From NCBI RefSeq assembly GCF_026151205.1, contig NC_087079.1, positions 9,476,635-9,540,634 of the forward strand: a stretch of 64,000 nucleotides of DNA, in the 5' to 3' direction. The first letter of the stretch is position 1, and each line of letters opens with the position of its first letter. Positions 1 to 56,445 of this stretch are shown piece after piece. The notes beneath the pieces are model-generated. The model was given only the letters and a program-made list of their open reading frames with translations. It was not told the DNA's origin and did no database searches. Both the position numbers and the translations under genes were made by a program. The stretch comes from Bolinopsis microptera. Its lineage: Eukaryota > Ctenophora > Tentaculata > Lobata > Bolinopsidae.

Positions 1-2
1 CG

Positions 3-455: not shown

Positions 456-525
456 AATAATTTATATTTTATCTTCTTTGGTTTGAATTCTTTATCGGAC
501 TTCTGTTATTGCATGGATACTTCGG

Positions 526-531
526 AATAAA
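526..531 (+). promoter_or_regulatory. polyadenylation signal candidate
   Basis: A canonical AATAAA lies about 70 bp after the stop codon of the PAN-domain exon, in AT-rich sequence. This is a normal place for the 3' end of that transcript. Confidence 0.5.
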
Positions 532-1440
532 ATTACTAAGAGTTTTTGTGGCATTTTAAAAAGATCTGAAATAAATAAATGAGAATGTTGAAAGAATAAT
601 GATTGCGCTAAATATTTCACGATTTTTACGTAACATTACTTAGCATTTCAATTGTCGTGCTTTATTTTATCCACTGAAAGGAAATAATATAAAATGGTTA
701 TTTTATTAAAAAATATTTTATCCAAATTAATACTTTTTGAACAATTGCAATATTATAACAACTATAACAGCCAAAACAACAATTGAGTCAAACAGTGAAA
801 TTCCAGTCAAGGAAACGGCAGAAAAGCTTCTCTTCAAAGATCATCCAAAATCTCTTTTTTTAATTTGATGATTTTCCGTTTATCAAAACTTTCTTTGGTA
901 ATCTAACTTTCAGCACCTCAATACTGTCTTGTGCCATCCACATTAAACTCAATAATTAGCCATTCAAGAAAAAGTCAAAACAGTTTCAAGTGTTAAACTA
1001 CTAATAAATGACTCTTGCATTTATTTTCACCAGTCATTACTTATTTTCGTAAATTTGTTAGATAATTTCGTTAAAAATCACATTCTCCCACATTGTTGGA
1101 CTAAAAATAAACCTGCTGAACGACTTCCAAAGAGCCTCAATGCCTGAATAAACAGTAAAGGGGATATAATAGTATGGGAGGTATAAGGGCAACGGTCATC
1201 CGTCATACTTGCCAGCACTGTGATCAAGCGGTACTGGTACTTCCTTGAACTTGAACGAATGAGGTATTCTTGTAATTTAGCATGTGATTGCCGTCAGGTA
1301 CTGGTAAAATCATTTTGCGGTCCTATTATTGATAACACTAACAGCCTTTATTTCCTCTTTAAAGTGCATTTTTACTTAAAGTTTAAGCTTATATTCAATC
1401 GACTGGTTTACAACAACAAAACAAAGTTATATTGCTGACC
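532..1440. other. AT-rich intergenic stretch
   Basis: I see no supported gene. The short open frames have no recognisable protein pattern and no splice context. Confidence 0.6.
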
Positions 1441-1441
1441 T

Positions 1442-1736
1442 TGTCCTTCCATGAAATACCCAGCACCATACCATTTGTATGGTAGCCTACCAAGGTTGTC
1501 AAACAAGTTACGAAGCAGGAGATTAAAAATGGCGGGACACTGCATCCGACATCCTGAGCTACTTGTCAGTGATTAATTCTTATGGGAACCTACGCACGGT
1601 TGAGCACAGCAAGGCCGACCAAGACAAAGCTACTTGTCTATGTTACTGAAGGAAGTTGGGACAAACTCTAAAGAGGAACTGCGAACCCTGATGCGGGACA
1701 GGGAATGGGATATATGGAGGGGTTTTCTGGAGTAGA
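1442..1736 (+). pseudogene. LINE reverse transcriptase C-terminal remnant
   Basis: One frame reads through two internal stops with the C-terminal block typical of RTE-like non-LTR retrotransposons: YGSLPRLSNKLRSRRLKMAG, then HCIRHPEL, WEPTHG, RGRPRQSY, and EELRTLMRDRE near the end. A short TAG-rich simple repeat follows at about 1,754-1,771, as expected at a LINE 3' end. The copy lacks all catalytic RT motifs and is 5'-truncated. It sits between the PAN gene and the carboxypeptidase gene and has no role in either. Confidence 0.75.
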
Positions 1737-2099
1737 TCGGACTTAGCTCCGACATAGTAGTAGTAGTTTAGTAATTTTTTTGGTCTGTGGTTCTTGCTCC
1801 TGATTACTTGATTAGAATTTCAATTTCAGCACAATTGTTATATAAGTTGAATAATACTAAAAAACCGGTGAGACAATGGTTACACACTTACAGCAAAAAT
1901 TTGACAAATCTTTAAAAATCAAAATCCTGGCTATCAATACTTATACAGGATGGTGCAGATAAGCGATTTTTCATTTTTTTTACATTTAACCCACCAGCAC
2001 CACTGCAAATCAAAACCCTCGTTGAATAAAATGTCATTACGGTTCAAAACGCTAGGCTCACGTCAACTCATCAACTGCAACTCAAAAATATTGAAGAAG

Positions 2100-4953
2100 C
2101 TAAAAGTGAACTAAATTAGCTGAATCATCTTCGGTAAAATTATCAGTTGCCTTCTGGCCGAGCCATTCCGCGATAAGGGCTACTTCCTGGTTCCTTGCAA
2201 GTATTACTGACATAGGATCGTCTTTATTGGAACCTCTCAGGTCAAGATGATGTGCTCCTTCGGCTATAATTATCGCTTTCACTGTCGGGTTCACGTCCTC
2301 TAGCACTCCTCCTGTTGGAATTTGATTTTTGGTATACTCAGGATGTTATACCATGTACGATTCCTTCAATCTTGAAGGCTAAAATAGCCTTTGGTCGAGA
2401 ATATCAATATTCAAAGTAAAGAACGCTATAAAGAGAATAGATAGAATTGAACAAAGAGTGCAATAATATTTTCCAACTCACCAGCGTGCCAAGGATCGAG
2501 TAGACCGTTAGAAAATATGATGTTGCTGGCAGCGGAGAAGTCAGCAGACCAGTAGTTAAGACTAGCATCAACTGGGTCAGGGGATACCTTGTAGTTAGCT
2601 TCACAGTACCTGGACGGACCGCGGCAATTAATTTTTGGTTTACCCTGTTCACTTTTTTCAGAAATCTCTACAATGACCTTCAGTGTTCCAAAGCACTAAG
2701 TGCGCGTTATTTAAAGTCGATAGGCAGCCAGTCTGAGCCAATTCAATCATTACTATTTTCCCCGGTAAATCTCATCAACTGACTTGCTAGCTATGTCAAG
2801 ATTCCACTCAAGTGGGGGAAACATGTCAGTTACATTGGTGCTTGGGGTGGCTAATTGGAACTCAGTACAGCACTGGAAATCCCACGCTTTCGCTTCGGGT
2901 CCCGTACCACAACCTGTGGGGATTTGAAATTATTTCATAATATAGGTATACACCTGAGTGTGAACGTGGGCGTGAACGTGGGCATGAAAGTGGCCAGGGC
3001 TTGGGAGTTGGGCTTGGGAGTAATTGGTAACCTCATCACCTGTTATGTCGGCACATTCGATGAAGTCTTCGTATATGTTAAAACATGATTTAGTGCCATC
3101 AGTTCCGTTATACAACAACCCAGCACCAACTGCTAAAGCCCTCATTTCGTTTCCACTCGTTTCCATTTCTTCGAGCATCATTTTACAAGAATGCTTCACC
3201 TAGTGATATTATGGCACTGTTTGAGTATTTCGAATTCATGAGATTGAGAGTGAGTTATTGCTATTTTTCGCGGAAATTCTGGAAACACTTCCCAGTCCCT
3301 TTCTAGAGAACAGCGGTTAAGAACAAGTTGACAATATATGGAGATACACTTACTGGCCATGCAGGTAACTCTCCCATAAACGAAGCGGGGTAGGGATAAT
3401 CAACCATCGCCATCATCAGCATAGCATTCCTCGCCCAGCCAACTAGATGGTTGAATTGGCTCACGTCAAACGTCTTACATAGCCTGTTGTGTTAAGAGTG
3501 AATATAAAGTTTCTACGTTTTAAACGTTTATTAAACATTCATAAAAAAATTTTAGTTCAATGGATCATTGAAACAATGTCAATACCAGATTCACAACGTG
3601 ATTCAGCTGCGTCACTTTGACATTTTAGCTGAGAGCCACCAACTTGAAAGTATCAGTTACAGAGGCCTGATAGCCTGGTGTCTTTACAATATTGTAGAGC
3701 TGAGAGAATCCCTTTCGAACGATATCCGGACACCTTTCATCAGCGGCCTTGAAGTCTTCTGTAACTATCTCGAAGAAAGCCTAAACAGAGAGAAAGTTCA
3801 ATGTACAAAAGGAGAAGGAAGCTTTTGTTGGTGAATTATCGTAAACGATCAAATAAAACATCCGTTTACTTACAATTATTGACAATGGAATGTGGTATTA
3901 TTGTTGAGAAATATTAGAAAGATAATTATTCAAAAAACGTTCGGGCTCCTTTGGATCAACTTTCTTACAACTGAGTACCTGTTTTGGTTTGGCGGTTCTA
4001 GCCATCATAGGCAGGGGAGCGGAAGCAGCTAAGGCCACATCCACTAACTGAGGGTACCTCAACCTCATCCAGGCAGTCAGCATTCCTCCGTAACTGCCAC
4101 CAAACGAAACTACCTGCATAACAGTAGTGGATTATTATTTAGGTTGAAGATTTAAAAATACAAAACGGTTAAAAGTATTTCGTAGTGTTATAAGTCCAGA
4201 TTATCATCATTACATTTACGAACCTTGCTCATAGTTTTAACCCAATATAGGTGGGAAAATGAGATTCTAATTGTGAATGCAAATATAATTCTCATCATAC
4301 CTGAGTTATGTTTTTTGATTTCTTGTAATGGTTGATAACTTCCGCAAAATCAGCTGTAGCTTGAGTTGAAGACAGATATCGCAGACCATCATTGCTGAAC
4401 GATTCAGACCCAAACGGTAAAGATTCTCCGTAGTACCTGATAGGAAATTAAGCATTTCTAATTTTGTAGAGTTTAAAGTTTCGTTTCAAGAATGAAGAAT
4501 ATGAAGAGTCATTAGCCATCTTCTGACAGTTACATAGTATCATTAGTATCTTAGACACATAACTTCTATAAGATAAGCTCCTATGAACAATAAGCTTCAG
4601 AACAAAGCTTGGACTAACCTATGCTCAACGAAGAGGATAAGAGCCCCGAAAGCGGGTGCTATCTCAAACATGAACCCTGTATTGTAATAGAAACTTTCAA
4701 GTGGTCCCTCGTTTCCAGTGTAAACAAAAAGTGGCCCAACTGTGCCGTTAGGACCACAGTCCCAGTGCTTGTTGTACTCAAACAGACGCTGAGAAAAGGT
4801 TTGAGAAGCTTCAGGGCTGTAACTGTAGTGGTCTACTTTCTGAGAGTATTGGAAGATTCCTGTGGGTTTGGGAACGTCATCAGAGAGGGTCAGGGAGATT
4901 AAGACTGAGAGAAGAAGTAGAATGATCATTGGATCACTTTTAGCCAGACTCAA
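2100..4953 (-). CDS. PRCP: Lysosomal Pro-X carboxypeptidase-like protease (peptidase S28), nine exons
   Basis: Exons, read on the minus strand, are 4953-4619, 4436-4301, 4113-3979, 3780-3644, 3483-3354, 3199-3040, 2913-2784, 2609-2482 and 2311-2100. All introns are GT..AG and phases match throughout. They join to a 500-residue protein, close to the family norm of about 490-500. Residues 9-23 form a hydrophobic signal peptide, and Met9 is an alternative start. Family S28 marks in order are [17 protein letters not shown] (about 110-117), FGGSYGG with the nucleophile Ser164, [14 protein letters not shown] with Asp426, and EGAHHLDLR with His451. The Asp-to-His spacing of 25 equals that of human PRCP. 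The enzyme would cleave C-terminal residues after proline in lysosomes or after secretion. DPP7 is the nearest alternative, but the His and Asp motifs read better as PRCP. The gene looks intact. Confidence 0.93.
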
Positions 4954-5429
4954 GCTTCAGAGACTGTTTTATAGCTATGAAATTTTATTGTTATAGTTAC
5001 GTAGTTACAAGTTAGCATGCTTACTGTTACTGTTTCAGCTCAATTAAGTATTAGTCAGTTGAAACTACAATGAAAGTAACAATAATAAAAGTAAAATTTT
5101 ATCAGTTATCTTCTGAGCAATCGAAAAAATTATCGCACAGAGTAGGAGTTTTCTAAAAAAATGTTCTGCAGCACCAGATACTAGAAGAAGCACTAGTATT
5201 ACTGATAACAAATAAAAAAGAATATGAGTGTTGAGTAAATATGAAGAGTAACTTAACACCGGGCCGGTGCAAATTATACAGGTCATCAGATAGATAAAAC
5301 GAGTCATGTGAGCCGCCACATCCCATTCTGATTCACTTAACTTATTCCAAATTCACCTGCACTAACTGATGTATCAGAATGATATGGGTTATTCCAGTTG
5401 CTACTGAGAGCTGCATGTACTATAACTAA
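4954..5429. other. Upstream region of the carboxypeptidase gene
   Basis: This AT-rich sequence lies 5' of the S28 gene on the minus strand. Its promoter should be here, but I see no clear TATA box or initiator. A minus-strand open frame near 5,065-5,319 is low-complexity hydrophobic and has no support as a gene. Confidence 0.4.
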
Positions 5430-5545
5430 CTGTTTGTAGGTTTACAACCTACCAGGACGCGCGCCGAGTTGGACTCGTTGACGGTCCAATATATGGAACA
5501 GATATTTTACGAGTATCACCCGTTAACTAACTGTAAGCACTAAGA
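5430..5545 (+). repeat. Dispersed repeat family A, end with short palindrome and Sal I-like motif
   Basis: It starts with an imperfect palindrome, GTAGGTTTACAACCTAC, then GACTCGTTGACGGTCC, then TTTTACGAGTATCACCCGTT. Related copies occur at 22,110-22,235 in the same orientation and at 14,770-14,960 and 33,300-33,420 in reverse. The shared order of the three blocks marks one repeat family. The class is not recognised. Confidence 0.6.
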
Positions 5546-5761
5546 ACCTGAAACATCGTTATAATGTATAACGAACTCAATTATAAATTCAGAGGCAACT
5601 TCATTGTTTCACTTCAAGAATATGGAGAGTTGTCAAAATTTAACAGGTGATACTTGTAAAATATTTGTTCCATTAAATATTAGTGATTAGATAATAGATT
5701 TAGATTAGGAGTTCAACTCAGCGCGCGTCATGGTACTGGTAGGTTTGGGAGCGTTCACATA

Positions 5762-5858
5762 TGACGTCAGCGACTGAGGGCGGAGGAGGGTTTTATAATG
5801 CTGACGGATGCTGACAGGGGAGGAAGTCTAACTCTAAGCCTTGCTCATGCTGACGTCA
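5762..5858. promoter_or_regulatory. Two CRE-like TGACGTCA sites
   Basis: Perfect TGACGTCA octamers lie at 5762-5769 and 5851-5858, 89 bp apart, in otherwise AT-rich DNA. Such sites bind CREB/ATF-type factors in animals. No gene start is visible next to them, so function is only a possibility. Confidence 0.3.
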
Positions 5859-5984
5859 GCAAAAATACGTGAAATTTTGCAACAAATTTTTGTTCCAAAT
5901 CAATTTTATTAATAATAAAACTTTGGTAATTTCTTTGTATTAATATTAATAGGTTAATACTAAATATTTAAAGACAAATAATAA

Positions 5985-6333
5985 TTATAACTCGTGCAAG
6001 TCCGAAATGGGCCGTGTGCTGCTTCTAGGAAGTACATATGACAGTGCATATCAGCACACTGTTGGCTTTCTTAGAGACCTGATGAGAACCAAGCGGAAAT
6101 CATGATTGCCTGGTAAGCAAGTTCACACTCATTCCGAATGGCGGTAGACTTTACAGCTACACTGCAGCTTACACTGTAGTGGGAATCGCGTCACTGATAT
6201 CCTCCGAGCATAATTACCAGGATAAATCCTGTACCAATCACAGCTTGGTGACCTGGCCTGCCTGCCTCAGACGGGGTTTGAACCCCGGTCTTCCGCTTGG
6301 GAGGCGAGTGAATTACCACTACACCACCCGGCC
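5985..6333 (-). mobile_element. tRNA-Gly-derived SINE
   Basis: On the minus strand the head reads as a tRNA with an A box at 6326-6316 (TGGTGTAGTGG), an anticodon loop CTCCCAA giving CCC (Gly), and a B box at 6284-6274 (GGTTCAAACCC) inside a good T arm. The 3' acceptor strand does not pair with the 5' GGCCGGG, so this is not a functional tRNA. A tRNA-unrelated body of about 260 bp follows. Similar 13-14 bp stretches (TATTTGTCTT, then TAA or AAA) lie outside both ends and look like a target-site duplication. These are the marks of a SINE driven by an internal Pol III promoter. Confidence 0.7.
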
Positions 6334-6602
6334 GACAAATTAAGACAAATATTAATATTTAATAGCATCATTTCGTAGATCATCAGAGAATGCATTTACA
6401 TCACTGCTTATAATATAATAACATGAGTTACACACCTCGTCAAATTCGGTATGTAACTCGTTTTATCCAACTCGTCAAACTCGTTGGATACAACTATTTT
6501 CACAACTCAAACATCAAAGTTGTGAAAATAATGTTATAAGCAGTGTTGTAACTGCTTATTATCACCTCTTCGACCTGTTGAACATGTACTTACCATAAAA
6601 TT

Positions 6603-6717
6603 TTGATTCACGATGTCAATCCTTCGCAGCTCGGTGAGGCACAGTGGTGCATCACGCCGATCTACCGAGAAGAATTATTTGATGCGCGGCGCGACCCAGT
6701 AGTGCATCGCGCTACAA
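6603..6717 (+). repeat. Dispersed repeat family A, inner block
   Basis: The block holds ATTCACGATGTCAATCCTTC, GTGAGGCACAGTGGTGCATC and a GATGCGCGGCGCGACC segment. The first part recurs inverted at 32,965-33,020 and, degraded, at about 14,786-14,812. The second part recurs inverted at 23,580-23,640. It lies just outside the 15-kb inverted repeat. Confidence 0.55.
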
Positions 6718-6847
6718 CATAAAAATGTAAACAAACAATTATCACCTCTATGGTGGCCGAGGAGGGTCATTTTTAAAAATAAAATAAAAACCATACTCAC
6801 GTGGCCGAGGAGGGTCATTCGGCCGAGGAGGGTCATTTTTTAAAAAT

Positions 6848-7148
6848 GGCCCTGCTCGGCCATGGCCGAGCAGGGCCAAACAATATGACGAAGAAATGGC
6901 CCTCCTCGGCCATGGCCGAGCAGGGCCAAACAATATGACAAAAATGGCCCTCCTCGGCCATGGCCGAGCAGGGCCAAACAAGAAATGGCCCTCCTCGGCC
7001 ATGGCCGAGCAGGGCCAAACAATATGAAAAAAGTGGCCCTCCTCGGCCATGGCCGAGCGGGGCCAAACAAGAAATGGCCCTCCTCGGCCATGGCCGGGCA
7101 GGGCCAAACAAGAAATGGCCCTCCTCGGCCATGGCCGAGGAGGGTCAT
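6848..7148. repeat. Left tandem array of 30-nt GC-rich hairpins
   Basis: Seven units of 41-51 bp each carry GGCCCTsCTCGGCC joined to GGCCGAGCAGGGCC, a 28-30 nt palindrome with CCATGG at its centre. The first unit (6848-6877) is perfect. Spacers are either AAACAATATGA-type or the shorter AAACAAGAAAT. On both sides (6760-6840 and 7135-7220) half-sites GGCCGAGGAGGGTCAT surround a shared AT-rich stretch containing ACCATACTCACGTGG. Open frames across the array on both strands are by-products of the repeat. Confidence 0.85.
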
Positions 7149-7220
7149 TTTTAAAATTAAATAAAAACCATACTCACGTGGCCGAGGAGGGTCATTCGGC
7201 CGAGGAGGGTCATTTTTTTT

Positions 7221-10029
7221 AAATGACCAAAACATCGCGCGCGCAATGCGCGTCTTTTACTTCTTAACAATGTCACGCACAGCGGCTTACGTAAACAACA
7301 AGACAGCGTGGACATTTGCTAGAACACCTCCTCGGACTAAGTTTGCATAATCAATATTTCGGTTCGAATTATAGAACGGACATGTCATTGTCATCATCTT
7401 TATACTTGAAATCTTTTTTACAAAATGAAACACAGATGTAAAATAATGAATTTATAAGAGCATTATCCGAGAACCCTTAAACACTGCAATGAAACTCCGC
7501 TGAAAAATCTGTTAAGTAGGTGAGAATTTACCTACCATCGGAAAGTTCCAAAATCTATAGCTAAATCCAAAACGTTTACAATCATACACTCCTTGCACCT
7601 TGAGATACGGAGATTGAACAGCGAGACGGAAAATAAACGATGAGATAGATATTGAACACTAGGAGTTGGACGGACATTAAATACAGAGAGAACTATTTAA
7701 CACGAGATAGAGATTGAAAACTGAAAGACAGATATTAAACACTGCACAGTGAGACGGACAGTCAATACGCAAGGATACGGAGGGAAACACTGGGTCGGTC
7801 ATCAAACATAGAGGGAGACGGAGAATCGAGAGAGTAAACACTGAGTGACATAAACACTGATGTGCATGATTGTTGAACTACTCAAACTCTTTCCCCATTC
7901 AAAACATCAAATAACAAATGCTGTCAGTAGCAGATTGAAAAATAACATTGCATTACTTTAAGATTAAAATTATAACCATTCTGAGCTGCGAAAGTAGCAT
8001 TTGATGATTTGAAAGTGAATTTCAATCCTCCAACAAACTTTAGTAAAATACACGACGTCATATGTTTCAAAAGATTGTTATATTTTAAGCTACCCTTGCT
8101 TATTTAATTAACCTCGTGCTATTTGCTAAAGAGAGAATAGCATTAGCAGATCTAGTTCACGTCTTCATATTTTCATGTAATTCGATGAAGCCACAAATCT
8201 CACAGAGCTACAGAATTCAGTGATCGTCTACAACACCAATAAAACCTGAAAAAAATGGAAGTTATGATATACATTTTAGAAACTCCATTGCAACATATTG
8301 CAATAGATCATCTAATCCGGGGTATAGTATGATGTGAAATTTGAAAAGTATTTAATATAAAAGCAAATTGTTTATCTCGTTAGGAAAATTTATCAAATAA
8401 CCATGCGAATTGTGATAGCGTGCTACGACACCGTGATTAATGAATATAGTGTTCATCGTTTACTCTCAAATCTGGATCCTAATTCTACCAGCTTCACGGA
8501 ACTTAGAAAAGAACTTTCCTCTGCCACTACACGAAGGCCAACGCAGTAAACTTGAATGCTAAAGATATCTTTCTTCAAGAAGCACTCTAAAATTTGGATC
8601 AGAATGATAAACAATGAACCTTATGCCAAATTATTAGACGGAGATCGTCTACTGATATTTCTCCGGAGTTTGCAGTTCCACGACCGGAGACCATCTACGG
8701 TAATTTTGTTGATACTGTATGAATTAATCTCCGAGAAATTCCCGGAGAGCTTCATCTCCGTCTAATACAGTAGACGGAGCCGGAGAATCATCTCCGGAGA
8801 TGATCTACGGGAAATGGACCTCCGTCTAATAATTTGGCATAATATCCGGCCATGGAACTGGGGGGTAAACTGTTTTGGAAATATCTGTAAATTTTAAAAA
8901 TGTTTTTTATAAATGATGGCAACGTCTCGACTAAGACGTTGCCACCTCGACAGTCTGTCTATTGTGTAATCAAATTTTACCTAAGTTAAGTCAGATTCAC
9001 CACACCATCTGTACCTCAAATAGTCCACTGGCAAAATCATTTTCTACAGAACCCATATACTGTTGAATGGACTCTTTTAATTACAGGTAAGACAGATTGT
9101 GTCTGAATTATTATCTTTTATTCAGAGACCGTGTAGAGTTAGACTATATAATATATATTAAGTAACTGCACTTATACAAATTTCTGGAATCATTGCAGTT
9201 GTGTGATAAGTCATGTTTTAACTCTTAAGTAGTGTTCATGGTGATCATATTTTTGGATCCCAAAACTTGGGAAGCACTCAACACACCAGGCTGAAGCAAA
9301 ACTTTCCCCATTTCACCGTACGAGGTAAGATGATCTAAAAGTATGTACTCAGCTTACAACTTTACTCGTGGGACGAGACGTCCTGACTTGAGCCCCGAAA
9401 ATTATTGAAATTATATACAGTTAGTAATAAGTATGCATACATAAATATAATACCAAACAATGTACAATGTGGTTTGGCCATTGCTATATATTTAAAATAA
9501 AATAAATCTGCCATATAATTATAAAAAATTTAAAAAATAAACCTGAAGAAAGGAGATGGAGAGTACTGAGTAGTTTCAAAAACATACATAGAATTAATTA
9601 AATGTTAGACAGAATAAATGCAAGCTTGTATCATTTTATTTTATTTCTCTAGCTCCCAAGGACCCGTATTTTAGCCGTTCAATCTACTTTAGTCATCATA
9701 ACTGCCATTTAATTTAAATTTCTTCCTATTGATCGATAATTGTTCATGACTTTTACAACTTTACTCACTCCCGCATATTGTCATTCATCAGATCACTGTA
9801 TAATAATGTGAACGTCTTTAACTAGAATTTCTCCTCAGAAAATCAGAACTTGAGGTGCTGAAAAGATAAAGAAAACAAGGAAATCAAAGTCCGGGGCCAA
9901 ACACAATGAACAGTACAGCATTGTAGAGTAAAAAATAAACTCTTTTAAAATTGTGCCCTACAGATCAGTACAATTAGTTGCACTTGAACAGGTGGTTATA
10001 CAGTCCACTACCTCTTCAATCCTCCATAT
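7221..10029. other. Unique part of the left arm, no gene seen
   Basis: The stretch is normal-looking AT-rich DNA without coding signal. Around 7,640-7,860 it has loosely repeated phrases such as GAGACGGA and TTGAACACT or TTAAACACT. It is mirrored in the right arm at roughly 18,780-21,280. Confidence 0.5.
8621..8842. mobile_element. 222-bp MITE-like foldback
   Basis: The ends TTATGCCAAATTATTAGACG and its exact reverse complement form inverted repeats of about 23 bp. Internal CTCCGG-rich segments also pair, for example GTAGACGGAG with its partner. It has no coding capacity. It is nested in the left arm and mirrored, degraded, near 19,810-19,910. A target-site duplication is not clear. Confidence 0.6.
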
Positions 10030-13000
10030 CAAGAGTATAAACAGGTGGCACTCAGTGATAAAGGAAAAACCCCCACTAACATTTTCTCAACACAAAACAG
10101 GTACAAGAAAAAAATAAGGCCCACATAGGGTAAATGGTTTTTCGGGGCACGCCACTGCATTTTCCCGACGGTGCAAAAAATCCTTTTCGAAACAAAGATT
10201 AACAAATGGGGAAGCGAAAACAAAATTTATGTGAAGCTTGTGGGAAAACTAAAATGGGATTTTTGGTAACCCCTTAAAAAGGAAAAAATAATATTAATGA
10301 AAAATTATCTTTTTGTGAACAGAACAAGGTTTGAGACGTTTATTTGGATAAGCACGGGACATCCAGGTTAAAAATTTAATCATACATAACCCACAAGGCT
10401 ATTCAGAAGTGCAATACGGGTGGGCCTGCTGGGAGCCCCTTCCCCGCCAAGAAAAAACCTGAAGGGGGTTTCTTGGAAGGTAGTAAAGCTTCGAGACTCA
10501 GAGGGTTGGGAATCTATTTTCGTTTTTGTATATTGGGGAGTCTGGGGGGGGGGCTAGCAGGAGCCCAAAAAACTTGTGGGCAGGGCGAAAGGCTCCTTTC
10601 AGTCTTTTGGTGGCCAGAAACGTTGCCCAAAACAAAGAAAGAGCATCCAAAAAATTTTTAAAAAAATTCCCAATAGGAGCAAATAGCACCAGCCAGCTTT
10701 TTACAACTTTATAAAATATTGAAAAGTCGCCTAGAATTTCAAAAAGCTCAACATCCCAACCTACGCAGGGCCCTAAAGGGATTTGAACCGTGTGATTAAA
10801 AATAACCCCCATCAAAAAAAATGAGTAACCAGAAAAAGTTTGCAAACATTAAAAAATTGCCTTTAAAACTTTAAACTCCCAACAACTTTTACAGAATAAA
10901 TGTTAAAAAAAAGGGATAAAAAGTTATTCAAAAAAAACCCTTTATTAAGGAATGATTGTTTTAAAATTTTAATATAAATCCCGATTAAAACCCTATTACC
11001 TCAACTAGCTCAAAAATTAAATGATTTTCTTATGAAAAAATAAAAACTTTCAGTTACGTTAAATTTTCGGTTATTCCAAATCAAGGCCGTTAATTCATTG
11101 CTTAATCCAGGTAATTTTGGGTTTTTATTTAAAGGGCGTAGTGTTAAAGTGTAAAATGTGGATGTTAGTGTTTTGGCTACACAACAAATACAAGCGTCTT
11201 TAAATTTTGGGGTAATACATATGATCCAATTTTAAAAATCTTAATCATTTATCATAACTTGGTTCGTCTGTCAAAATAAAAATACTAGCAATAAATCAGG
11301 TTTGGAGGAAAGCTTAAAAGGTATACGTTTAAAAATAAATTAAACAACCAGGTTCAAAAAGCATCAGTAGTTGCAGACTGCAGAGGTTAGGGGTAGTTTA
11401 AAATCGTCACATTGGAACTAAACAGGGTTTTTTTGATTTTCTTTTTTTCACCCAATTAGATGTTGCACTGCTTCAAACATTCCAAAAACTTAAAAAAAAT
11501 AAAGCAGTTTAAACGAAAAAAAACCCAAAAATATTTTTATTAAAATGGCCACTTAAAATAAATAAATTGGGCTCAATTCAAATTGTACACATTTAAAAAA
11601 TGGATATTGAAGACCCAAAAATATAAATTTATAAATAACATTTACAATATTTTTCCCCTTATCCTTGAAAAAATAAACGGGAATTTAAACATAAATTTCG
11701 GATCAATTCGAAAGGTTTGAATATCCGAAAAGATATAATAATAATAATACTGGGTACTGGTGTCACAAAAAAAATTCTTAACGCCCTACTGACTTTAACT
11801 ATTTTTTTTATTGAAGGAAAAATTTAAACGTATATTAATTTATATCAAAAATTAATAAAGTGATGCAATTGGAGAGCACAAACGTTAATCTGACATAGAT
11901 ATCGTTATCCTTCGTACTCTTCTCCTCAGGTTTCGGGTTAAGGAGACAGGGGTTTTTTAAAGGGGGGTCCTGCCTTCTTGGCTTTCCAGTACCCTCAAAT
12001 TCTAGCACACTCCTCTTATTTTATATCCATGCTCAGGCGTGTCCGGTTTACAACCCCCTCTGTAGTCCTCCTTGGGTCTTGGGGTATAAACAGAAATTTT
12101 CCCCTTTAAAAAAACCTTTGGGCCCTAAAGCTCAGGTCCTTTCCCTCCGTAGTGGTAAATACGGGAAAACAAAAATCCCCTTTCTTAAATTTATTGTAGC
12201 CATGTTCTGCATAGGTTCTATTTTCATTCTCTGCAGAGTGAAAGGCTGGGGATGGTCTTTCTTTTTGTAGGGATTTAGGATTGAAAATACGTGTCAAAAA
12301 AAATCCTCTAAATGTCCCCATACTCCTTTTCTGATATATCGGCCTAGCCTTTTCAGTTTGTTCCCCTTTGTTGGAAGTTGGCGATTTTGGTTTTAAAACA
12401 GGGGCAAAAATCCTCAGTCACATCCTTGGTCCCCACCTATATTCGAACAGGTCTTCATGTTGTTATGACGGTAGTTCTTACTTTTGGGATATGATTGTGA
12501 CATTCTTGGCTCCATAATCAAGATTTTTGGGGGTGTTAGGGTTCCCAAACCCCCAAGATAAACGCACCCAAAGTTTTGCTCGCTATAGCAACCCTAGTGT
12601 TGATGGGAGACATGTTAGCCAACTCCTCCCCATTTCTTGTACCAGTGCGTGACCCCAGTATTTCATCCCTTACTTGAATTTCTCACAAGTCCTTCTTCAA
12701 GCAAATTCTTTAACAACTTGAGGCGTTAACTCTCCCCTTTATTTTAATTTTATCCAATTTATCGGGGAGTTCGGGTCTTTGATGAGGTCAACCATCCTCT
12801 TTTTTCTTGATGACTCTGGTTTTCCCTTTTCCGCGACTTATGGCTCACCTCCCAACCCCCCCTATTTTACGGTAGCGCAGAATTTCCTGTGCAGGTCATA
12901 CATTCCTACCAAAAATTGCCGGAAAACTTTTCCTTTTGTACACTTCTCAATGGGTGGAGGTATTAATATGTTCGGGGAGGTGCCATACAAAGGTCCCCGA

Positions 13001-16000
13001 TAAGGGGGTTTGTTAAAATGGGGGCTGCCTGGGTCATCAAGAGAAATTTCAAACTCTTCTACGTCCTCTCCCCTATCACTTTCCCCAATATTTTCCCATT
13101 TTGACTCTTTCCAGTATCTCCAAAAAAAACATGGCTGCTGGTATTACCTTTTTGGGGCCCCCTTTAGGATAAGAATAGTCTTCATTTTTTGGGGGAAGCC
13201 AACTTAGGACCTTTCAAACTGAGTAAACCCAAAACAGCCCGGGTTTCTTCAGAAACTCTGCTGCAATCCCACACCCTCGCTTGCACAATTGAACTATCGG
13301 TTTTTTCGGGCCAGTATTTCGGGTTAACCCACGTTTTGATTAATTACCGTTTTATCAAAGTTTGGTGTGGGTTTAACTTCTCGCAGGGCTCCAGATGTCA
13401 AAGGACTTCCGGTTACCAGGAAAATTCTTTTGCTTGGTCAATCTTTAAATCTTTTAAGACTCTTTTTAAAATTTTTCCCTATTAAAAGTTCCTTATTCTT
13501 TCTCAGGGTATCAATATCAATGACAATACGGAAAACAAAATGTAATCAAATTAATCGTCAAAAAAGAAAACCCTAAAAATGAAAAAGGGGGTTTAAAAAT
13601 GCAAAATAACACTAATAAATTCTAAAGTATTCTTGTGAAAATTTGGGAAGTATTGCTTTAGGCCGTTTTTCATACTATAACACGGTGACTTTTCGAAAAA
13701 AAGCGCGGCGACCTAAAATTTGGTTCCTTAAGAATTAATTTTTTTGCCAAATTTATATTTGATGCTTTTAAAATTAGTCGAAATTAGTAGACGTACGAAA
13801 AAAATTTCGAAAATTTTTTTTAATTTTTAAATTTTTGTTTACAACTACCAGAGGCGGCACATTAAGAAACGCTTTCCGCTAAAAACAAAAAACGTTGTCG
13901 ATACAAAGTGAAAATGAAAATTTTGCGGGGCGCGTCCAAATTTCCAAGCAAAGAAAGTGCGCAACGTGATCAATTTTTTCCCAAAAGCCTTTTTTTGCTT
14001 GGGCCGAATTTGCAGTTATGCCATGCAACAGGGTTTATGTAAAGGGGAAAATAATATTTTATGTACGATAATGCTGTCATTAAAGTTTTTTCGCGTTCTT
14101 GTCAACACTTAATTTTAGCAAGTTTTTTAAGAGTATCCCCCGTTTTACTGGGCGGGGGCCGCGCTCACCCTGTAATCCCCCAAAATCCATCAACTTAAAA
14201 GCTGGGGTCCTCAGGAAAAAAACCCCCCGAAAACCCTTTAAAACCCCTTTCGGAACCCGATGTTGCTTTAATTTGAACCTGTATGACCCCCCGCGCACGA
14301 AGTCCCGGGGGCTCCCCTTTTCGTCGAAACATACATTATATGAAGCGACGTGGGGTCACCACGTATACAACTTTAGGGGTGTCATGTTGGAAAAAAACCC
14401 TCGGTAAAAATTTGCCGCTGGCAGTTACTAAATTGTTTTTATAACGCTGTACTGCCAAAATTGACCGATGTAAATTCTCGCCTGGGCGAGGCACAAAAAG
14501 CTTTTTTGCGATTAGCATAGGGAAATAATTGGTGCGCACGCGCACAGTAAAAATCGCGCCAAGGCCCTGGAGCTGCCGTAAATTTCCTGGCCTGACTTGG
14601 GCCCTTAATTGAAAATTAAATGCTTTTTTAAAACAGTTATACTGGTAAAAAAAAACATTTGACCGTAACGGGTTCAACTCGGCGATCATTTATTTTGGTT
14701 TTTAAAATTTTGTGCGCGTGCACTTTTTGGGGGCCCCGCGCGCATCCATATTTTTTCTCCAACCAGTATGCAGATCGGGGAGATGCGAAGGGTTGACATC
14801 GTGAATAAGTTATTAATTATGATATAAATTTAAAAAATAAATTTTTTATATATTTAAAAATTAACGGGTGAACCGTAAACAGTAAATATATGTTCCCTTA
14901 CAATATTTTGGACCGTCGACGAGTCCAAAATAGCTGGGCCCCGTCCTGGGAGGTTGTAAACCCACAATTTTAACCTTTTAAACCTATATAAAAATTTTTC
15001 AAATTTTTTCTGTCGTTTTAATCGCTAATTTAGCATCAAATTTAAATTTTTGGCAAAATAATTAATTCTTAATGGAACCAAATTTTAGGTGCCCGCGCAA
15101 AATTTTTGAAAATGACACCGGTTTTTGTATGAAAATCGAGCGCTAAAGCAATCTGCCCCAATTTTTTTACAAGAATACTTTGTAATTTATTATGTTTCTT
15201 TGCATTTTAAACTCCTTTTTTTCACTTTATTGGTTACTTTTCGACGATTAATTGATTAAAAATCATGTTTTCTCATTGTCTTGATATTGGTCACATTGAT
15301 GAAAAAAATAAGGAACGTTAAAAAGGGAAAAAAATTTTTGAAATCTTAAAAGATTCCCAAAAATTGGCCAATGCAAATGATATGTGCTGGTAACGGGAAA
15401 TCCTTTGTAATCTTAGGGGCCCCTGAGAGAAGTTACCACACCAAACTTTGATAATCAATGAAAACAGAATCGTGGATTATACCCCATAACTACTGGCCGT
15501 AAAAACCGGTACTAGCTTCAAATTTATGCAAGCTGGTGTGGGATGATTGCCGCAGGTTCTCTAAAAACTCGGGGTGTTTAGATTTACCAGTTTGAACGGG
15601 CCCCAAGTTAGGCTACTTCCCCCAAAAAAAGAAGGACTTTTTTATCTAAAGGGCCCAAAAGGGACTACCCCCCTGTTTTTATTTAGTACTGGATAAGATC
15701 ACATGCGATGGGGACATCATCTGGGAAAAAGTGAAAGGGGGAAGGGGGGCGTAGAAAAAATTGTCAGAAAATTTCCCTTTATGCCTCAGGGAGCCCTACA
15801 TTGTTACCAAAAACCCCTGTCATCGGTGGGCCCTTTTTGATGCCACCCCTCCAAAAAATTTAATACCTTTTATCCCTTGGAGAAATGACAAGAAAAAGTT
15901 CTTCGCATTTTTGGTAGGAAAGGACTGCCCACAGGAAATGTCTGCGCTACCTTAATGAGGGGGGGTTTTAGGTTTTAGCCAGTAGAATCGCGGGAAAAGG

Positions 16001-19000
16001 AAACCAATCACTCAAAAAAAAGGAGGGGTTACCCCCATCTATGACCGGGAAAATCCCTGTGAAGTTGGATAAATTAAGATAAGGGGGAAATTTAAAAGCC
16101 CCAAGTTATTAAAAAAATTACGTTAAGAAGGGGCTTCTGGGAAAATAATTCAAGTGAAGTGGATGGAATCTAGGGATCCGCAACGGGGACAAGAAACAGG
16201 GTCAGGGGCTTGGGTAAACATTTTTCCCCATTCAACCTGGGTTTGCTTATACGAGCAATTCAGAGATGCTGTTTTCTTGGTGTGGTTGGGACATCCCCCA
16301 CCCCCCGAATCTTGATTATGGGGCAAAAATTTCAAATCAAATTTTCCTCAAATTTAAAAAACCGCTAACAACATGAGAGACTCTGTTGCTGAAAACCTTT
16401 GCGGTGACCAAATTTAGCTGAGGTTTTGCCCCCGTTAAAAACCTATGAATCACCAACTTCCCCAAAAAAAGGGGAACAAGCGATATAAAAGGGGGCTCGA
16501 TAATCGCAAAGGATTGGGCACATTGGAAAGGGCTTTTTTTGAATGGTATTTCAACCTAAAAGCCACAATCAAAAAAGACCTGCCACACTTCACTCTAAAA
16601 TGAGAAATAGAACCGTATGCAGAAAAGGTGTAAATAATTTAAGAAAGGGTATTTTTTGTCCCCCCCTGTTTTACCCCTACGGGGAATGGCACCTGACTTG
16701 AGGCCAATTTTTAAAGGGATTGCTGTGTTAACCACCAAAAAAAAGGGGGGATCACCAGGAGTGTAAAAATAGGCACCCTGGGATGGATTTTAAAAACTAA
16801 AAAGGGGGTGTGCTAGTAGCATTAAGGGGGTTTTAAAGCCAAAAAAAAAAGGGATGGGCCCCCCCAATATCCAATGTTCCTTCAACCTGTACCTGGGGAA
16901 AGCTACGAAGGTAGACGTTCTATTGCTCAGGATTACGTTTGTCTCTGCCAATTTTCACCTTGATTTAATTTTTTGTATAAAATATATTTTTTCTGTTTTC
17001 ATTTTTTTATCTTCAATTAAAAAAAAGCTTAATGTCTGGTCTTTTGAATTTTTTTGTGAACCAGGAAAAACCCAAAAATATTTTTTATTAATCTTTCTGG
17101 AAATTTAAAACCTTTTGAATTTTTCTCGAAATTTTTTTTAAATTCCCCTTTTAGTTTTTAGGGATAAGGGGGTAATATTTAAAAAAGCTATTGTTAAAAG
17201 TCTCTTTTTGGGTCTTCAAGTACCATTTGGGTTTTTGGGACAATTTTTAAATTGCAGCGAAGATTTATTGATTTTAATTGGCCTTCTTTAAAAAAATATT
17301 TGCGTTCTATTCTTTTAAAAGCTTTATTTTTAACTGTTTTAAAAATTTAACTGCAAAGATCAATGCGGGGGGAAAACAAGTCAACCAAACCGATGCTTTG
17401 TTCCCTGTGACTGATTAATCTACCTCCCCAACCTCGCAGTCGCAACAAAGCTGCTTACTTTTTAAACCCGGTTGTTATAAAAAGTTTTTTTTACATCCTT
17501 CAAACTTCCCCAAAAACGATTTTTTGCGTATTTTATTTCTGAGAAATGAACCAATTATGATTAAAATTTTTTTATTAAGTTTAAACATAATCTTTAAACC
17601 AAAATTAAGATCGCTTTTATTTGTTTCGTGGGGAAAAAAAAAATCACATCCCATTTGAATAAAAAATCCCCTTTTTCCTAAACACTAAATTTACTGGGGC
17701 CCCTAAACAAAGATCTCGGCCGTGATTTTTGAATAACCCCAAATTTAAAAATTCTAAATGTATCTATTATTCACTAAAAAAAAACATTAATTATGACTAG
17801 TACCTGGTGTAATAGTGCTTATGTAATCTGATTTTATTAAATTAATAACAAGCATTCCCCTTTAAAAAATTGTCTTTTTATAATTTTTTCCTTTTTTTTA
17901 ACATTTTTGAAAAATTTTTTTGTTCTAAAGTTTAAAGGAATTTTTGAAAGTTTTGCGATACTTACTCGGTTTCTCTTTTTGTGATGGATTATTTTTAATA
18001 AAAAGCGGGGTCATAATCACTTGAGGCCATGTGTATTGTTGGGGCTTTCAGCTTTTAATTCCCAGGGGGGCTTTTTGCAATGGATTTTAGAATTTTCAAA
18101 AAAGCTTAGCTGGGCATTGTCTCCCATTTCATGGGAATTTTATTAAATTGTAGTGGGGCGTCTCTCTCTCTCTTGTTTTTGGGCAACGGTTTGGGCCCCA
18201 TAGACTTTAAAGGGGGGTTTCCCGGGCCCCCAATGGGACTCCTGCTACCCCTCCCCGGCTCCCTAGAAATTTAAAAACATAAATTAAAAATATCAACAAC
18301 AACCTCTATCTCGAAGCGTTTTTTTTCCCTTTCGGCAAAACCCCCTTCAGATTTCTTCTTTGGCGGGGGGCAGGGGCCCCAGCAGGTCCCACCGAATATG
18401 GTTTTACTACTGAGTATCCTTTTGGGGCTAGTTTATTATTTTTGAACCTTTTTATGTCCTAGTCTTTCCAAATGATCGCTCAAACCTTTTGACTTTCCAG
18501 AATTTTTAAAGTTCGAGTTTTTATTATGAGTTCCTCAATTTTAAATTTTTCCAAAAAATCCTCATTCTATTGTCTCATGGGTCATTCCATGGAAGTTTGT
18601 GATGTTTCTGCTTCCCCGGGGGTGTTCACGTCTTGGTTTTTAAACGGAGTTGTTTTTCCGTTGGAAGTATCTAGTGGGGGGTCCCATTACCCTTTTGCCC
18701 TTGATGTGATACCCGTGATGTTTATTTTCTTTACCTGTTTTGTTAAAAAATTTTTGGGGGTTTTTCCTTTATCACTGAGTGCCCCCTGTTTTTACTTTTG
18801 ATAGGGAAATTTAAAGGGAGTGGGCTGTATACCACCTGTTCAGGGAACCCAATTTTACTGTTGTAGGGCACAATTTTAAAAGAGTTATTTTTTACTCTAA
18901 ATCTGTATTTTTATTTGTTTCCCCGCTTGATTTCCCTTTTTTTTTCTTTTTTTTTTCACACCTCAAGTTCTGATTTTTGAAGGGGGAAAATTTTAGTTAA

Positions 19001-21280
19001 AGACTTACATTATTATACTGATCTGTGAAAGACAATAGCGGGGGGTGATAAAGCTTAAAAATCATGAAAAATTATGATCAAAAGGAGAAAGTTAAATAAA
19101 GACGTTTTGCTAAAAGTAATTTAAAATAAAAAAGGGGCTTGGGGGCTAAAAATTTAAAATAAAATAACAAGCTTGCATTTTTTGTCTAAATTTAATTTAA
19201 TTTTATGTTTTTTTTGAAATAATATCTCCCCTCCTTTTTTAGGTTTATTTTTAAATTTTTTATAATTTTTGGGGAATTTATTTTTTTAAAAATATACAAT
19301 GGCCCCAAAACCCCAAAGACATTTTTGTTTAAATTTTTTTGCATATTATTCTCTTTTAAAAAAATTTTTAATTTAAATTGTCCATAAAAAAAAATTTTAA
19401 CATTTACTTTTACATTTACCCTACAAATAAATTTTCTTACCTTTTTTATTTCCCCCAATTTTTCCAAAAAAACACCATAACACTCTAAAAAAACATAACA
19501 CCCAAATCAATACCCCCAAAAAAATTTAAACAACAAAATAATTAATACAACTTCCTGAATAAAATAAAAATTTTTAAACCCCAACTTTCTTCCTAAAAAA
19601 ATCCCTTCAAAAAATGGGTTCTTAAAAATAATTTGCATCTTTGAGGGACAATTTGAATCTACTTTAAATTGGGAAAATTTTATTCACAATAGCAACTTAG
19701 GGGGGCAACGTTTAGTCAGACGTTCCCTCTTTATTTAAAAAAAAATTTTCAAAATTTTACAGAATTTCCAAAACATTTACCCCCCATTCCCCGGCCGGTA
19801 TTATGCCAAAAATTATTAACGGACCATTTCCCCCTAAAAATCTCCGGGGGATACTCTGCTCGTTCGATTAACGGGGATGAAGCTTTCCGGGGAATTTCGG
19901 GAATAAATTCCATATCAAAAAAATACCGAGAGGTCTCCTCGTGGGGCTCAAATCCGGAAAATTCATGACGATCTCCCTAAAAATTTCATAAGGGGTTTAT
20001 TTTTATCATTTGATCCAAATTTTAGGGGCTTCTTGAAGAAAAATATCTTTTTAAACAATTTATGCGTTGGGCCTTGGGTATGGCAAGGGAAAATTTTTTC
20101 TAAGTTCCTGAAGGGGAAATTAAACCAATTGAGATAAACGGAACCTATATTATTAATCCGGTGGGCGGCACGCTATCCAATTTGCTGGTTATTGAAAATT
20201 TTTTCCCAAAGAGTAAAAATTTTCTTTTTTAAATTTAAATCTTTTTAAATTTCACTCAATTACCCCCCATTAGATATCTTTGCAATTTGGCAAGGGGGTT
20301 TCAAAATTATAAATTAATTCATTTTTTTTAGGTTTTTTTTTTTGTAGACGATCACGAATTCGTCTCTGTGGATTTGTGGGTTCATCGAATTACTCTCACG
20401 CGACTTGATGAAATAGAAACGTAATAGATCGCTAATGCTTCTCCTTTAGCAATACACGGGGTTAATTTAAAAAGCAAGGGTAGCTTAAAAAATTAAAAAA
20501 ATCTTTTGAAAATATGAGTTGTTTTATTTTACTAAAGTTTGTTGGGGGATTAAATTCATTTCAATCATCAAAGTACTTCGCAGCCAGAAAGGTTATAATT
20601 TTTAAACTTAAATTGCAATGTTTTTTTAATTGCTACTGAAGCATTTGTTATTTGATGTTTTGAAAGGGGGAAAAAAGTTTATATTCAAAAAATCTTAATC
20701 AGTTTTATTCATCGTTTTACTCTCTCGATTTTCCGTTCCCCCCAAATTTGATGACCGACCCCCGGTTTTTCCCCCCTACCTTGCTATTGGTCCTCTCCTG
20801 TGCAGGGTTTAAAACTTTTTCATTTTTTAAACTCTATTCGTTTAAATAGTTCCTTGTATTTAATGTCCGCCAACTCTGTTTCAATTTTAATTCATCGTTT
20901 TTTTCCGTCTCGCTGTTCAATCTCCCATCTAAGGTGCAAATGTATGATTTAAACGTTTTGGTTAGTATAAATTTTGGGAAATTTCGATGGATAAATTTCA
21001 CCTATTAACAATTTTTTACGGGGTTTTTTTCATTTTAAGGGGGTTTTCCATATGTTTAAAATTTTATTTTTTTACATCTGTGTTATTTTGTAAAAAAAAT
21101 TTTAAGTATAAATAACAAAACATTTTTATAATTCAAACCAAATAGGGTTAGAAACTTTTCCAAGGGGCTACAATTCCAGGTTTTTTGTTGTTTACAACGC
21201 TGTCTGACTTTTTTAAAAGTAAAGACGCCATTGCGCCGCATGTTTTGGCATTAAAAAAAGACCCCCCCCGAATGACCCTC
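10030..21280. other. Low-accuracy sequence tract
   Basis: From about 10.03 kb the base texture changes sharply to long runs of A, T, G or C and mixed phrases such as GGGGGGTTTT. Normal texture returns just before the right hairpin array. Aligning the right arm to the clean part of the left arm shows substitutions that mostly extend a neighbouring homopolymer, plus many small indels. That is the pattern of uncorrected long-read consensus, not of evolution. No reading frame here is credible, and coordinates within it are approximate. Confidence 0.7.
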
Positions 21281-21312
21281 CCGCCCCCTGGTATGGGTTT
21301 TTATTTAATTTT

Positions 21313-21668
21313 AAAAATGACCCTCCTCGGCCATGCCGAGGGAGGGCCATTTCTTGTTTGGCCCTGCCCGGCCATGGCCGAGGAGGGCCATTTTTGTCAT
21401 ATTGTTTTGGCCCTGCTCGGCCATGGCCGAGGAGGGCCATTTCTTGTTTGACCCCGCTCGGCCATGGCCGAGGAGGGCCATTTTTTTCATATTGTTTGGC
21501 CCTGCTCGGCCATGGCCGAGGAGGGCCATTTCTTGTTTGGCCCCGCTCGGCCATGGCCGAGGAGGGCCACTTTTTTCATATTGTTTGGCCCTGCTCGGCC
21601 ATGGCCGAGGAGGGCCATTTCTTCGTCATATTGTTTGGCCCTGCTCGGCCATGGCCGAGCAGGGCCAT
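21313..21668. repeat. Right tandem array of 30-nt GC-rich hairpins
   Basis: This is the reverse complement of the left array, ending in the perfect 30-nt palindrome at 21637-21666. It has about eight units against seven on the left. The order of long and short spacers differs from the left array, so units have been gained or lost since the arms were identical, or the array is misassembled. Confidence 0.8.
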
Positions 21669-22109
21669 TTTTAAAAAATGACCCTCCTCGGCCGAATGAC
21701 CCTCCTCGGCCACGTGAGTATGGTTTTTATTTTATTTTTAAAAATGACCCTCCTCGGCCACCATACACCTCTTCAACCTGCTGAACATGTACTTACTTAT
21801 ATTATTTTTAAAGTAAACAAACAATTATCAACATCACCTCCCCGCCAGTATCCACATCTATTAATATTAATATTATATTAATATTTGATATTATAGTACT
21901 TCATGCAGTTCGAACTGAAGTTGGTTGACCAACTGTTTAAATCAGTTTCAGTTCTCACACTAATTTTCCCTACACAGTACACCCCGTCTTACTTGGGGAC
22001 CTCAGACTATTATGTTCATAAACATAAACCGAATACAGAATAGAGATTCGGCGGAATGACAGGCTGAAAGCTGAGCGCGGCCCAGTAAACGCCGTCAGCA
22101 TTTCTATAT

Positions 22110-26190: not shown

Positions 26191-26445
26191 AACGTTGGCA
26201 TTAATAGCTCAGTCACTGAGTGCCCAATTGAAATAATTGGTTCTGGTATGACTTACTACCACCACTGGTTCGAGAAATTTGTCAAATCGAAACATATTTG
26301 TGTTCATTGTTTTCAAAAGAAGGTTCATTTTCGCATTTATTTGATAGTTTGGATAATCGGATCGAGCCAAATTTTATTGAATTGTGTTTAGCCATTTAAA
26401 TTACGTTTGCTCTAAAAAATGAGAGTATATATATATTACTCATGC

Positions 26446-26487
26446 AACTAAGATAAATTGAGTATAAATACTCAATTTATCTTAGTT
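26446..26487. repeat. Perfect 20-bp-stem hairpin, copy 1
   Basis: AACTAAGATAAATTGAGTAT is followed by AA and then its exact reverse complement. GCAAC and GTTGC outside extend the symmetry after a small interruption. It lies at the start of the duplicated unit. Confidence 0.8.
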
Positions 26488-27192
26488 TAAGTTGCAAGTT
26501 ATATAACTCATTTTCTAAAGGTCTCGTAAACTTTAATCAATTACAGAGAGTGTGGCCTCTTTTTCACTGAAAAGACGCCATCAGATTTCATTGCATTCTG
26601 GGACCAATTTTGGTGTGATTTAAAGTATCCTACAAATTGGTGTTTACTGTTTCGACTTTTGTAAAATCACTGTAACAATATAATCTGTATTCTTATAGTT
26701 TCAACCATAATAGTGAAATAGAGGGGCTGGCCAATAGCCACACCCTCTGTAATTTATTTAAGTCTACGAAACTTTCAGAAATTTGTGTGTAATTCGGAGA
26801 TAAATTAAACAAGTTGTTATCGGCCACCATGTGTAAACGGAATGTTCTAGCAGACTGTATAATACTATAACATACATTTTCTTACACACACATAATCTAA
26901 TCTCTGGAATGTTGCTATGATATCAATGGCAATGTTTTGATACTGTGTATTATCATGATTATGCCTTACAGGCCGATCTTCCGATGGAGTTTCGGTTGCC
27001 ATGGCAACACATCAATATTATAAAGAATTTGTAAACGCAGTCACAACTCTGTCGTGTACACTGTACGGTGCGAGCGGTTATTTTATGATAGGTAACATCT
27101 ACTTTTTCAGCATTTGCGGGATGACCAGTTCACACGTATATTTTCGCAGACACAACTTCGCATAAAATTATATCCAATTATTCTATAACCAA

Positions 27193-27688
27193 TTATCTAC
27201 ACGGACTTCTGTCTAAATATGAATGAAATCGAGAAAACCAAATATTATATGTTTCATCCTGAAGTTCTGAGTTCTCAGGCAGTAAAATCATGATCCTGAT
27301 AGATATCGAAGTCTCCTTAAATGATTGTCTCTGCTGCTTAATATATCTGGATTGTCGTTGGGAGGCGATGCAGATTTGTTTACTTTTAAGGGGGAGGTTC
27401 TGCTCAGCAGGAGAAAGAGGTGATGCACATTTTGTATTTGTCTGACATGTAGGACTTGAGCCACGTTTCCGTAAGTGCAATAAACGGTAACGAGTGGTTT
27501 TTGGATTTCTCCTGAATAAGAGCTGAGATTTTTGGCACTTCCCATATACTCGCACTTGATGCACAGGATTCATGGACTGGACATTTAAGACGAGGCATGA
27601 GGAATAACGGGCACGTGCAGTGTATCCTCTGAGGCGGTAGGAACTGCTGGTAGTGGTATAGTGGGTAGTATATATATATATTACTCAT
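27193..27688 (-). pseudogene. LINE endonuclease N-terminal fragment, copy 1
   Basis: The minus strand encodes ISALIQEKS, then FIALTETWLKSYMSD, the start of the AP-endonuclease domain of CR1/L2-like non-LTR retrotransposons, where a TETWL block is typical. The homologous stretch jumps between frames and has stops. The upstream part is cut by the tandem-duplication junction, so only about 120 residues remain. Confidence 0.6.
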
Positions 27689-27690
27689 GC

Positions 27691-27732
27691 AACTAAGATA
27701 AATTGAGTATAAATACTCAATTTATCTTAGTT
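27691..27732. repeat. Perfect 20-bp-stem hairpin, copy 2
   Basis: It is identical to the hairpin at 26,446-26,487 and lies at the tandem duplication junction. Confidence 0.8.
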
Positions 27733-28437
27733 TAAGTTGCAAGTTATATAACTCATTTTCTAAAGGTCTCGTAAACTTTAATCAATTACAGAGAGTGTGG
27801 CCTCTTTTTCACTGAAAAGACGCCATCAGATTTCATTGCATTCTGGGACCAATTTTGGTGTGATTTAAAGTATCCTACAAATTGGTGTTTACTGTTTCGA
27901 CTTTTGTAAAATCACTGTAACAATATAATCTGTATTCTTATAGTTTCAACCATAATAGTGAAATAGAGGGGCTGGCCAATAGCCACACCCTCTGTAATTG
28001 ATTTAAGTCTACGAAACTTTCAGAAATTTGTGTGTAATTCGGAGATAAATTAAACAAGTTGTTATCGGCCACCATGTGTAAACGGAATGTTCTAGCAGAC
28101 TGTATAATACTATAACATACATTTTCTTACACACACATAATCTAATCTCTGGAATGTTGCTATGATATCAATGGCAATGTTTTGATACTGTGTATTATCA
28201 TGATTATGCCTTACAGGCCGATCTTCCGATGGAGTTTCGGTTGCCATGGCAACACATCAATATGATAAAGAATTTGTAAACGCAGTCACAACTCTGTCGT
28301 GTACACTGTACGGTGCGAGCGGTTATTTTATGATAGGTAACATCTACTTTTTCAGCATTTGCGGGATGACCAGTTCACACGTATATTTTCGCAGACACAA
28401 CTTCGCATAAAATTATATCCAATTATTCTATAACCAA

Positions 28438-35775: not shown

Positions 35776-35794
35776 AATTGATTGGGTCTGAGGT

Positions 35795-35834
35795 CACGTG
35801 ATTATGAGCCTGAGGTCACGTGACTATGACGTCA
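35795..35834. promoter_or_regulatory. Paired CACGTG and CRE-like sites
   Basis: CACGTG lies at 35795-35800 and 35817-35822, with TGACGTCA at 35827-35834. The same cluster is mirrored in the right arm at 40463-40502. These are bHLH-ZIP and ATF-type sites. Whether they drive any transcript is unknown. Confidence 0.35.
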
Positions 35835-36850: not shown

Positions 36851-36854
36851 GCTT

Positions 36855-56436: not shown

Positions 56437-56445
56437 ATATATAAT

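Follow-up and report, generated by a model that had tools for sequence, protein, structure and literature searches.

Fold-back elements have been known since the 1980s, but to our knowledge many of them have neither a known transposase nor any direct trace of the way in which their arms are kept alike. The palindromes of sex chromosomes offer an analogy, since arm-to-arm conversion occurs in them.

Several described systems resemble the element reported here. The longest copy of Galileo, a member of the P superfamily, measures 9 kb and consists of two TIRs only (PMC4168063). Galileo shares with our element TIRs that make up nearly the whole length, internal tandem repeats, TE fragments in both TIRs and non-autonomous copies (PMC4168063), but it belongs to another superfamily and its longest TIRs reach 4.2-4.7 kb, compared to ~7-8 kb here. 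Tetris and DAIBAM of the Drosophila virilis group are likewise non-autonomous, with long array-bearing TIRs and tips that they share with miniature elements. Their target-site duplications (TSDs) are, on the other hand, 8-10 bp, their TIRs reach up to 1.7 kb, and no transposase source was found for them (PMC4079207), whereas a candidate source is present in the same genome here. The KolobokP composite-like transposons are DNA transposons that carry long terminal repeats and are proposed to spread by a second route, one based on repair, but their long repeats are direct and not inverted, they belong to another superfamily, and they carry a homing endonuclease (PMC9587614).

The comparison that matters for classification is with IS3EU. 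Its families have TA..TA termini and usually a 6-bp TSD (PMC10045372), and fungal members end in TAYGG..CCRTA (PMC12730594). With IS3EU/GingerRoot our family has in common the TA..TA (TAYGG..CCRTA) termini, the 6-bp TSD, and an IS3-type HTH combined with an rve-type DDE core. The descriptions of IS3EU that were consulted concern ordinary TIR elements, with fungal TIRs of >30 bp for example, and in them no whole-element palindrome, per-arm transposase gene or array of tip-like motifs was found.

Here, we describe an element in a 64,000-nucleotide stretch of the genome of the ctenophore Bolinopsis microptera, called the window below. The best explanation, with a probability of roughly 0.82, is that it is a non-autonomous inverted dimer of IS3EU type, belonging to a family whose arms would be copied from one another by fold-back, and that the window copy has dropped out of this cycle.

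Structure of the element

An initial annotation of the window proposed a 15-kb inverted repeat with defined ends, and this is confirmed by alignment of the window with its own reverse complement, in which the dominant match pairs 6,749-13,831 with 21,765-14,977 (7,426 columns, 72.6% identity, E=0). The element consists of two inverted arms of ~7 kb each and a centre of ~1.1 kb. About 14 of its 15 kb pair, so that it has the long repeat-bearing inverted arms of a fold-back element, and the self-alignment and the arrays together bear out its description as an unusually large fold-back-type element with array-bearing ends. In a global alignment of the arms, the outer ~430 bp are 95-98% identical, and the inner arms 55-78%. 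The boundaries had to be corrected. The ends had been placed at 6,750 and 21,764, but the element in fact extends one base beyond each of these, from the T at 6,749 to the A at 21,765, and what had been taken for a flanking direct repeat of 7 of 8 bp is a perfect 6-bp repeat, CACCTC (6/6). The features are as follows.

6749..21765, unstranded: whole element, 15,017 bp, TATGGTGG..CCACCATA; a single transposon
6743..6748, unstranded: left target-site duplication, CACCTC
21766..21771, unstranded: right target-site duplication, CACCTC
6749..6771, plus strand: left 23-bp tip, TATGGTGGCCGAGGAGGGTCATT; 22/23 in common with the transposase-bearing subfamily
21743..21765, minus strand: right 23-bp tip
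6894..7144, plus strand: left subterminal array, 41-50-bp units built on GGCCCTCCTCGGCCATGGCCGAGCAGGGCC
21321..21672, minus strand: right subterminal array
6749..9980, plus strand: young outer part of the left arm, differing by 0.26-0.77% from the C5 and C13 arms; inner edge approximate
10000..13866, plus strand: decayed inner left arm, ~73% to the C5 copy
13867..14931, unstranded: unpaired centre, without pairing in the self-alignment; edges approximate
14932..21330, minus strand: decayed right arm, ~70-77% to sister copies
21330..21765, minus strand: young right tip, ~95-100% to sister copies; edge approximate
8621..8869, unstranded: MITE in the left arm, matched by a decayed one at 19,776-19,991 in the right arm
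11780..13080, minus strand: decayed reverse-transcriptase fragment captured in the left arm
15730..17027, plus strand: decayed reverse-transcriptase fragment in the right arm, the mirror of 11,780-13,080

The element had been said to contain no genes. This is right as far as an intact gene is concerned, but in both arms there are decayed pieces of a reverse-transcriptase element and of a MITE.

Related copies in the assembly

The initial annotation had regarded the absence of any other genomic copy of the ends as an argument against its proposal. A search of the 264.7-Mb assembly shows that the same tip does occur elsewhere. With up to 3 mismatches allowed, TATGGTGGCCGAGGAGGGTCATT has 135 matches genome-wide, some of them inner repeats of arrays, compared to 0 for the reversed control. 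At least 21 pairs of tips delimit elements, which range from 68 bp to 34.7 kb. Exact TSDs are found at 15 of the 21 paired copies (6 bp in 13 cases and 7 bp in two), while the other six have none.

Long relatives of the window copy include one on C5 (25.2 kb, with a nested Gypsy that has identical LTRs), one on C13 (29.2 kb, with a nested LINE), and others on C7 (34.7 kb), C8 (17.9 kb) and C11 (19.9 kb). A sister subfamily has the tip TATGGTGGCCGAGGTGGGTCATT, which differs from that of the window by one change (22/23 the same); the tip arrays are confined to the subfamily of the window. Copies of the sister subfamily are located at:

C1:20,859,265-20,873,814
C4:5,387,628-5,403,436
C5:1,340,897-1,359,488, called C5-1340k
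C10:9,968,922-9,987,071

There are also single-ended copies, consisting of the tip and 1-2 kb of arm, near contig ends and possibly subtelomeric (C2:22475270, C3:4493, C6:274581, C6:337444, C10:18199228 and C11:103455). Several single-ended copies have a common insertion of ~279 bp relative to the window. At C10:2372629-2373016, the left tip and the adjoining host flank are tandemly duplicated (387 bp), another end rearrangement that includes flanking DNA.

Transposase and classification

The same multi-exon gene is found in both arms of the C1, C4 and C5-1340k copies and in one arm of C10:9,968,922-9,987,071, and it reads outward from the centre. Spliced by consensus GT-AG introns, the C4 gene gives a predicted open protein of 305 residues, in which the C-terminal exon junction is provisional. 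This predicted protein matches the Pfam domains rva_4 (E=8.2e-23), rve (6.7e-4) and HTH_21 (0.0022), the last being an IS3-type HTH. Splicing is required for these domain matches, as single exons give nothing or weak matches only, and a search against solved structures gave no useful match. The candidate catalytic residues in the spliced model are the D of SLDGH, the D of RFDKGTE and the E of IERLW, with 37 residues separating the second D from the E (D..D-37-E).

The window copy itself had been described as having no visible transposase, and indeed no exon of the sister gene lies in 6,749-21,765; remnants of a transposase sought there did not rise above chance. The copy at C10:10,997-11,012k was considered as an autonomous one and rejected, as it has the same tips but no transposase-like ORF. 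Other IS3EU-like transposase exons, 31-57% identical, are present at C10:1362-1366k, C12:2824-2826k, C5:6.70 and 6.78 Mb, C7:18.78 Mb and on C195.

Judged by its ends, TSD and Pfam domains, the family fits IS3EU. The window element has the termini TATGG..CCATA and a 6-bp CACCTC on both sides, and its sister copies with the same ends encode the predicted IS3-like DDE transposase. A transposase of its own is expected of autonomous members only, and as the window copy has no such exon, it is filed as a non-autonomous member. The suggestion that the element may represent a new family is thus not upheld, since the ends, the TSD length and the sister transposase match a known superfamily; as far as can be told from sequence, the feature is a new structural variant of IS3EU and not a new superfamily. 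Mobilisation in trans, also proposed earlier, we consider probable. The window copy and the sister subfamily share their tip, and the transposase of the latter, recognising it, is therefore the probable agent.

Two other assignments were weighed against IS3EU. A classical fold-back element of the P/Galileo or Mutator kind, moved by a P- or Mutator-type transposase, would have a similar anatomy, with long repeat-bearing TIRs, captured TE fragments in both arms and no ORF. A Mutator-type element would, however, have a TSD of 8-10 bp, compared to 6-7 bp here, and instead of a P-type transposase the sisters with the same tip encode an rva_4/rve-type DDE enzyme with an IS3-type HTH; this assignment is thus disfavoured as very unlikely. 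Polintons/Mavericks are 15-20 kb long, with a 6-bp TSD, long TIRs and an rve-type integrase, and the size, the TSD length and the rve-type core seen here are similar in kind. A degenerate member of that group is nevertheless hardly credible. The ORF lists of the window and of the C5, C13, C10 and C1 copies, with domain searches covering part of the frames, show no polymerase B, packaging ATPase or capsid gene, the C1 and C4 exons form a compact gene matching rva_4 and HTH_21, and the TATGG..CCATA ends are the signature of IS3EU.

Palindromic copies and the likeness of their arms

Self-pairing of the C4 copy runs end to end (bases 1 to 15,809) at 99.2% and leaves a loop of no more than ~20 nt, and the C1 copy is palindromic in the same way except for a LINE fragment. 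The innermost arms of C1 can be aligned, at 71-79% identity, with their inner counterparts in the C5, C13 and window copies. The palindromic layout therefore predates the split of the two subfamilies, and the body of this IS3EU-type family would be an inverted dimer older than that split.

As a rule, the two arms of a copy resemble each other more closely than they resemble the arms of other copies. Distances were measured over 2.7 kb of arm within the window subfamily and over 3,154 columns for C4. The left and right arms differ by 0.07% in C13 (at least 0.55% to other copies) and by 0.00% in C7 (at least 0.84% to other copies); those of C4 are identical (0.00%), its nearest other copy being at 0.10%. 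There are two exceptions: the left arm of C1 is 0.22% from C4 but 0.57% from its own right arm, and the left arm of C5 is 0.26% from the left arm of the window copy but 0.33% from its own right arm. As these left arms are closer to other copies than to their own partners, exchange between copies also occurs. The symmetry of the palindrome may be maintained by a strand folding back, such that one arm is copied from the other by enzymatic steps that we infer.

The C7 copy contains a tract that bears directly on this. The segment 1,113,570-1,120,737 is mirrored at 1,148,817-1,141,650 over 7,168 bp with one mismatch. The mirrored tract covers 861 bp of host sequence beyond the left end and stops 311 bp inside the right end, after which 311 bp of the right tip follow, and the outer ends of the copy keep the TSD CGCGTA. 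As the tract takes in host flank outside an element with intact TSD, the mirroring came after insertion. The simplest reading is a fold-back copying event that overshot: the right arm would have broken after insertion, the break would have been repaired by fold-back copying of the left arm, the copying would have overrun the element into host DNA, and the copied strand would then have been joined to the remaining right tip. Such an overshoot into the flank is seen in this one copy.

These observations also bear on two further explanations. In one, the palindromes are made anew in each copy by sister-end fusion, a by-product of transposition, and no later arm-to-arm copying takes place. This would also yield near-identical arms within copies, but the homologous innermost arms in both subfamilies point to an old palindrome, and the C7 tract with its host flank is post-insertional; we regard this explanation as unlikely. 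In the other, a segment of host DNA was duplicated in inverted orientation, or the assembly is in error, and transposition plays no part. Large inverted repeats can arise in this way, palindromes assemble badly, and the C7 copy does hold an inverted duplicate of host flank. The window arms, however, differ by ~30% or more and are therefore not an assembler's mirror image, and the tip is found again, with TSDs, at unrelated places across the genome, which makes a duplication or artefact highly improbable.

Beyond the fold-back dimer preferred here, one can envisage a self-templating palindromic transposon, in whose life cycle fold-back copying between arms would regularly follow breakage. We put this forward tentatively, giving it somewhat less than an even chance. 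If true, self-templating would keep the two transposase genes per copy intact and renew the tips, and what is seen in C7 would be one such round, caught after it had run on into the host flank.

Separate decay and young ends of the window copy

In the left arm of the window copy, identity drops abruptly to ~73% inward of ~9,980, while on the right only the terminal ~430 bp are young, compared to 3.2 kb on the left. The decayed right arm has no genomic copy above 79%. The inner arms are 73% and 73% identical to C5 but 63% to each other, and each arm has therefore decayed separately from a C5-like palindrome; relative to C5 there are 118-124 deletion and 7-8 insertion events per arm. The captured reverse-transcriptase fragment provides an outside yardstick that agrees with this separate decay, as its identity to intact genomic copies is 86-90% for the fragment in C5 and 72-75% for those in both window arms. 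Change in the window arms has been at least double that in the corresponding C5 segment. Over 10000-21330 the inner arms are ~25-30% diverged, and the same segments in sister copies far less.

The window copy would accordingly be read as one that left the copying cycle, after which its inner arms decayed on their own, and whose left 3.2 kb and right 0.43 kb may have been renewed from an active relative. Two histories fit the data. Either conversion renewed the tips of an old copy where it stands, or the old copy moved after its tips had been renewed; the intact TSD leans, without deciding, towards the latter.

Hypermutation of the window copy was considered and rejected, the substitution spectrum being A+T-ward, strand-symmetric and not focused on CpG. 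An RNA-hairpin constraint on the arms was also rejected, as G.U-type differences are evenly balanced between the strands (402 vs 433) and give no sign of selection for a transcript that pairs.

Of most interest are the palindromic sisters of autonomous type and the trace that arm copying has left, more so than the window copy by itself. A single genome contains a non-autonomous fold-back element and a candidate source of enzyme with the same tip, together with near-perfect 15-kb palindromes, which are expected to be unstable, the fossil of arm copying in C7, and a window copy in which homogenisation has stopped. The origin and upkeep of fold-back transposons are thus testable in a single species.

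Other features of the window

Further repeats are found elsewhere in the window. A tandem direct duplication of 1.24 kb (26426-27665 / 27671-28911) is 99.6% identical, and its minus-strand ORFs resemble a LINE fragment; another tandem duplication, of ~513 bp, lies at 56432-56944 / 56958-57467 (96.5%). A second inverted-repeat unit of ~4.7 kb occupies 35776-40521, with 489-bp arms at 98.8% and outer arms at 34628-34876 / 40518-40765 (92.5%). Finally, an exon-like ORF at 4597-4956 matches Peptidase_S28, a serine carboxypeptidase (E=1e-12).
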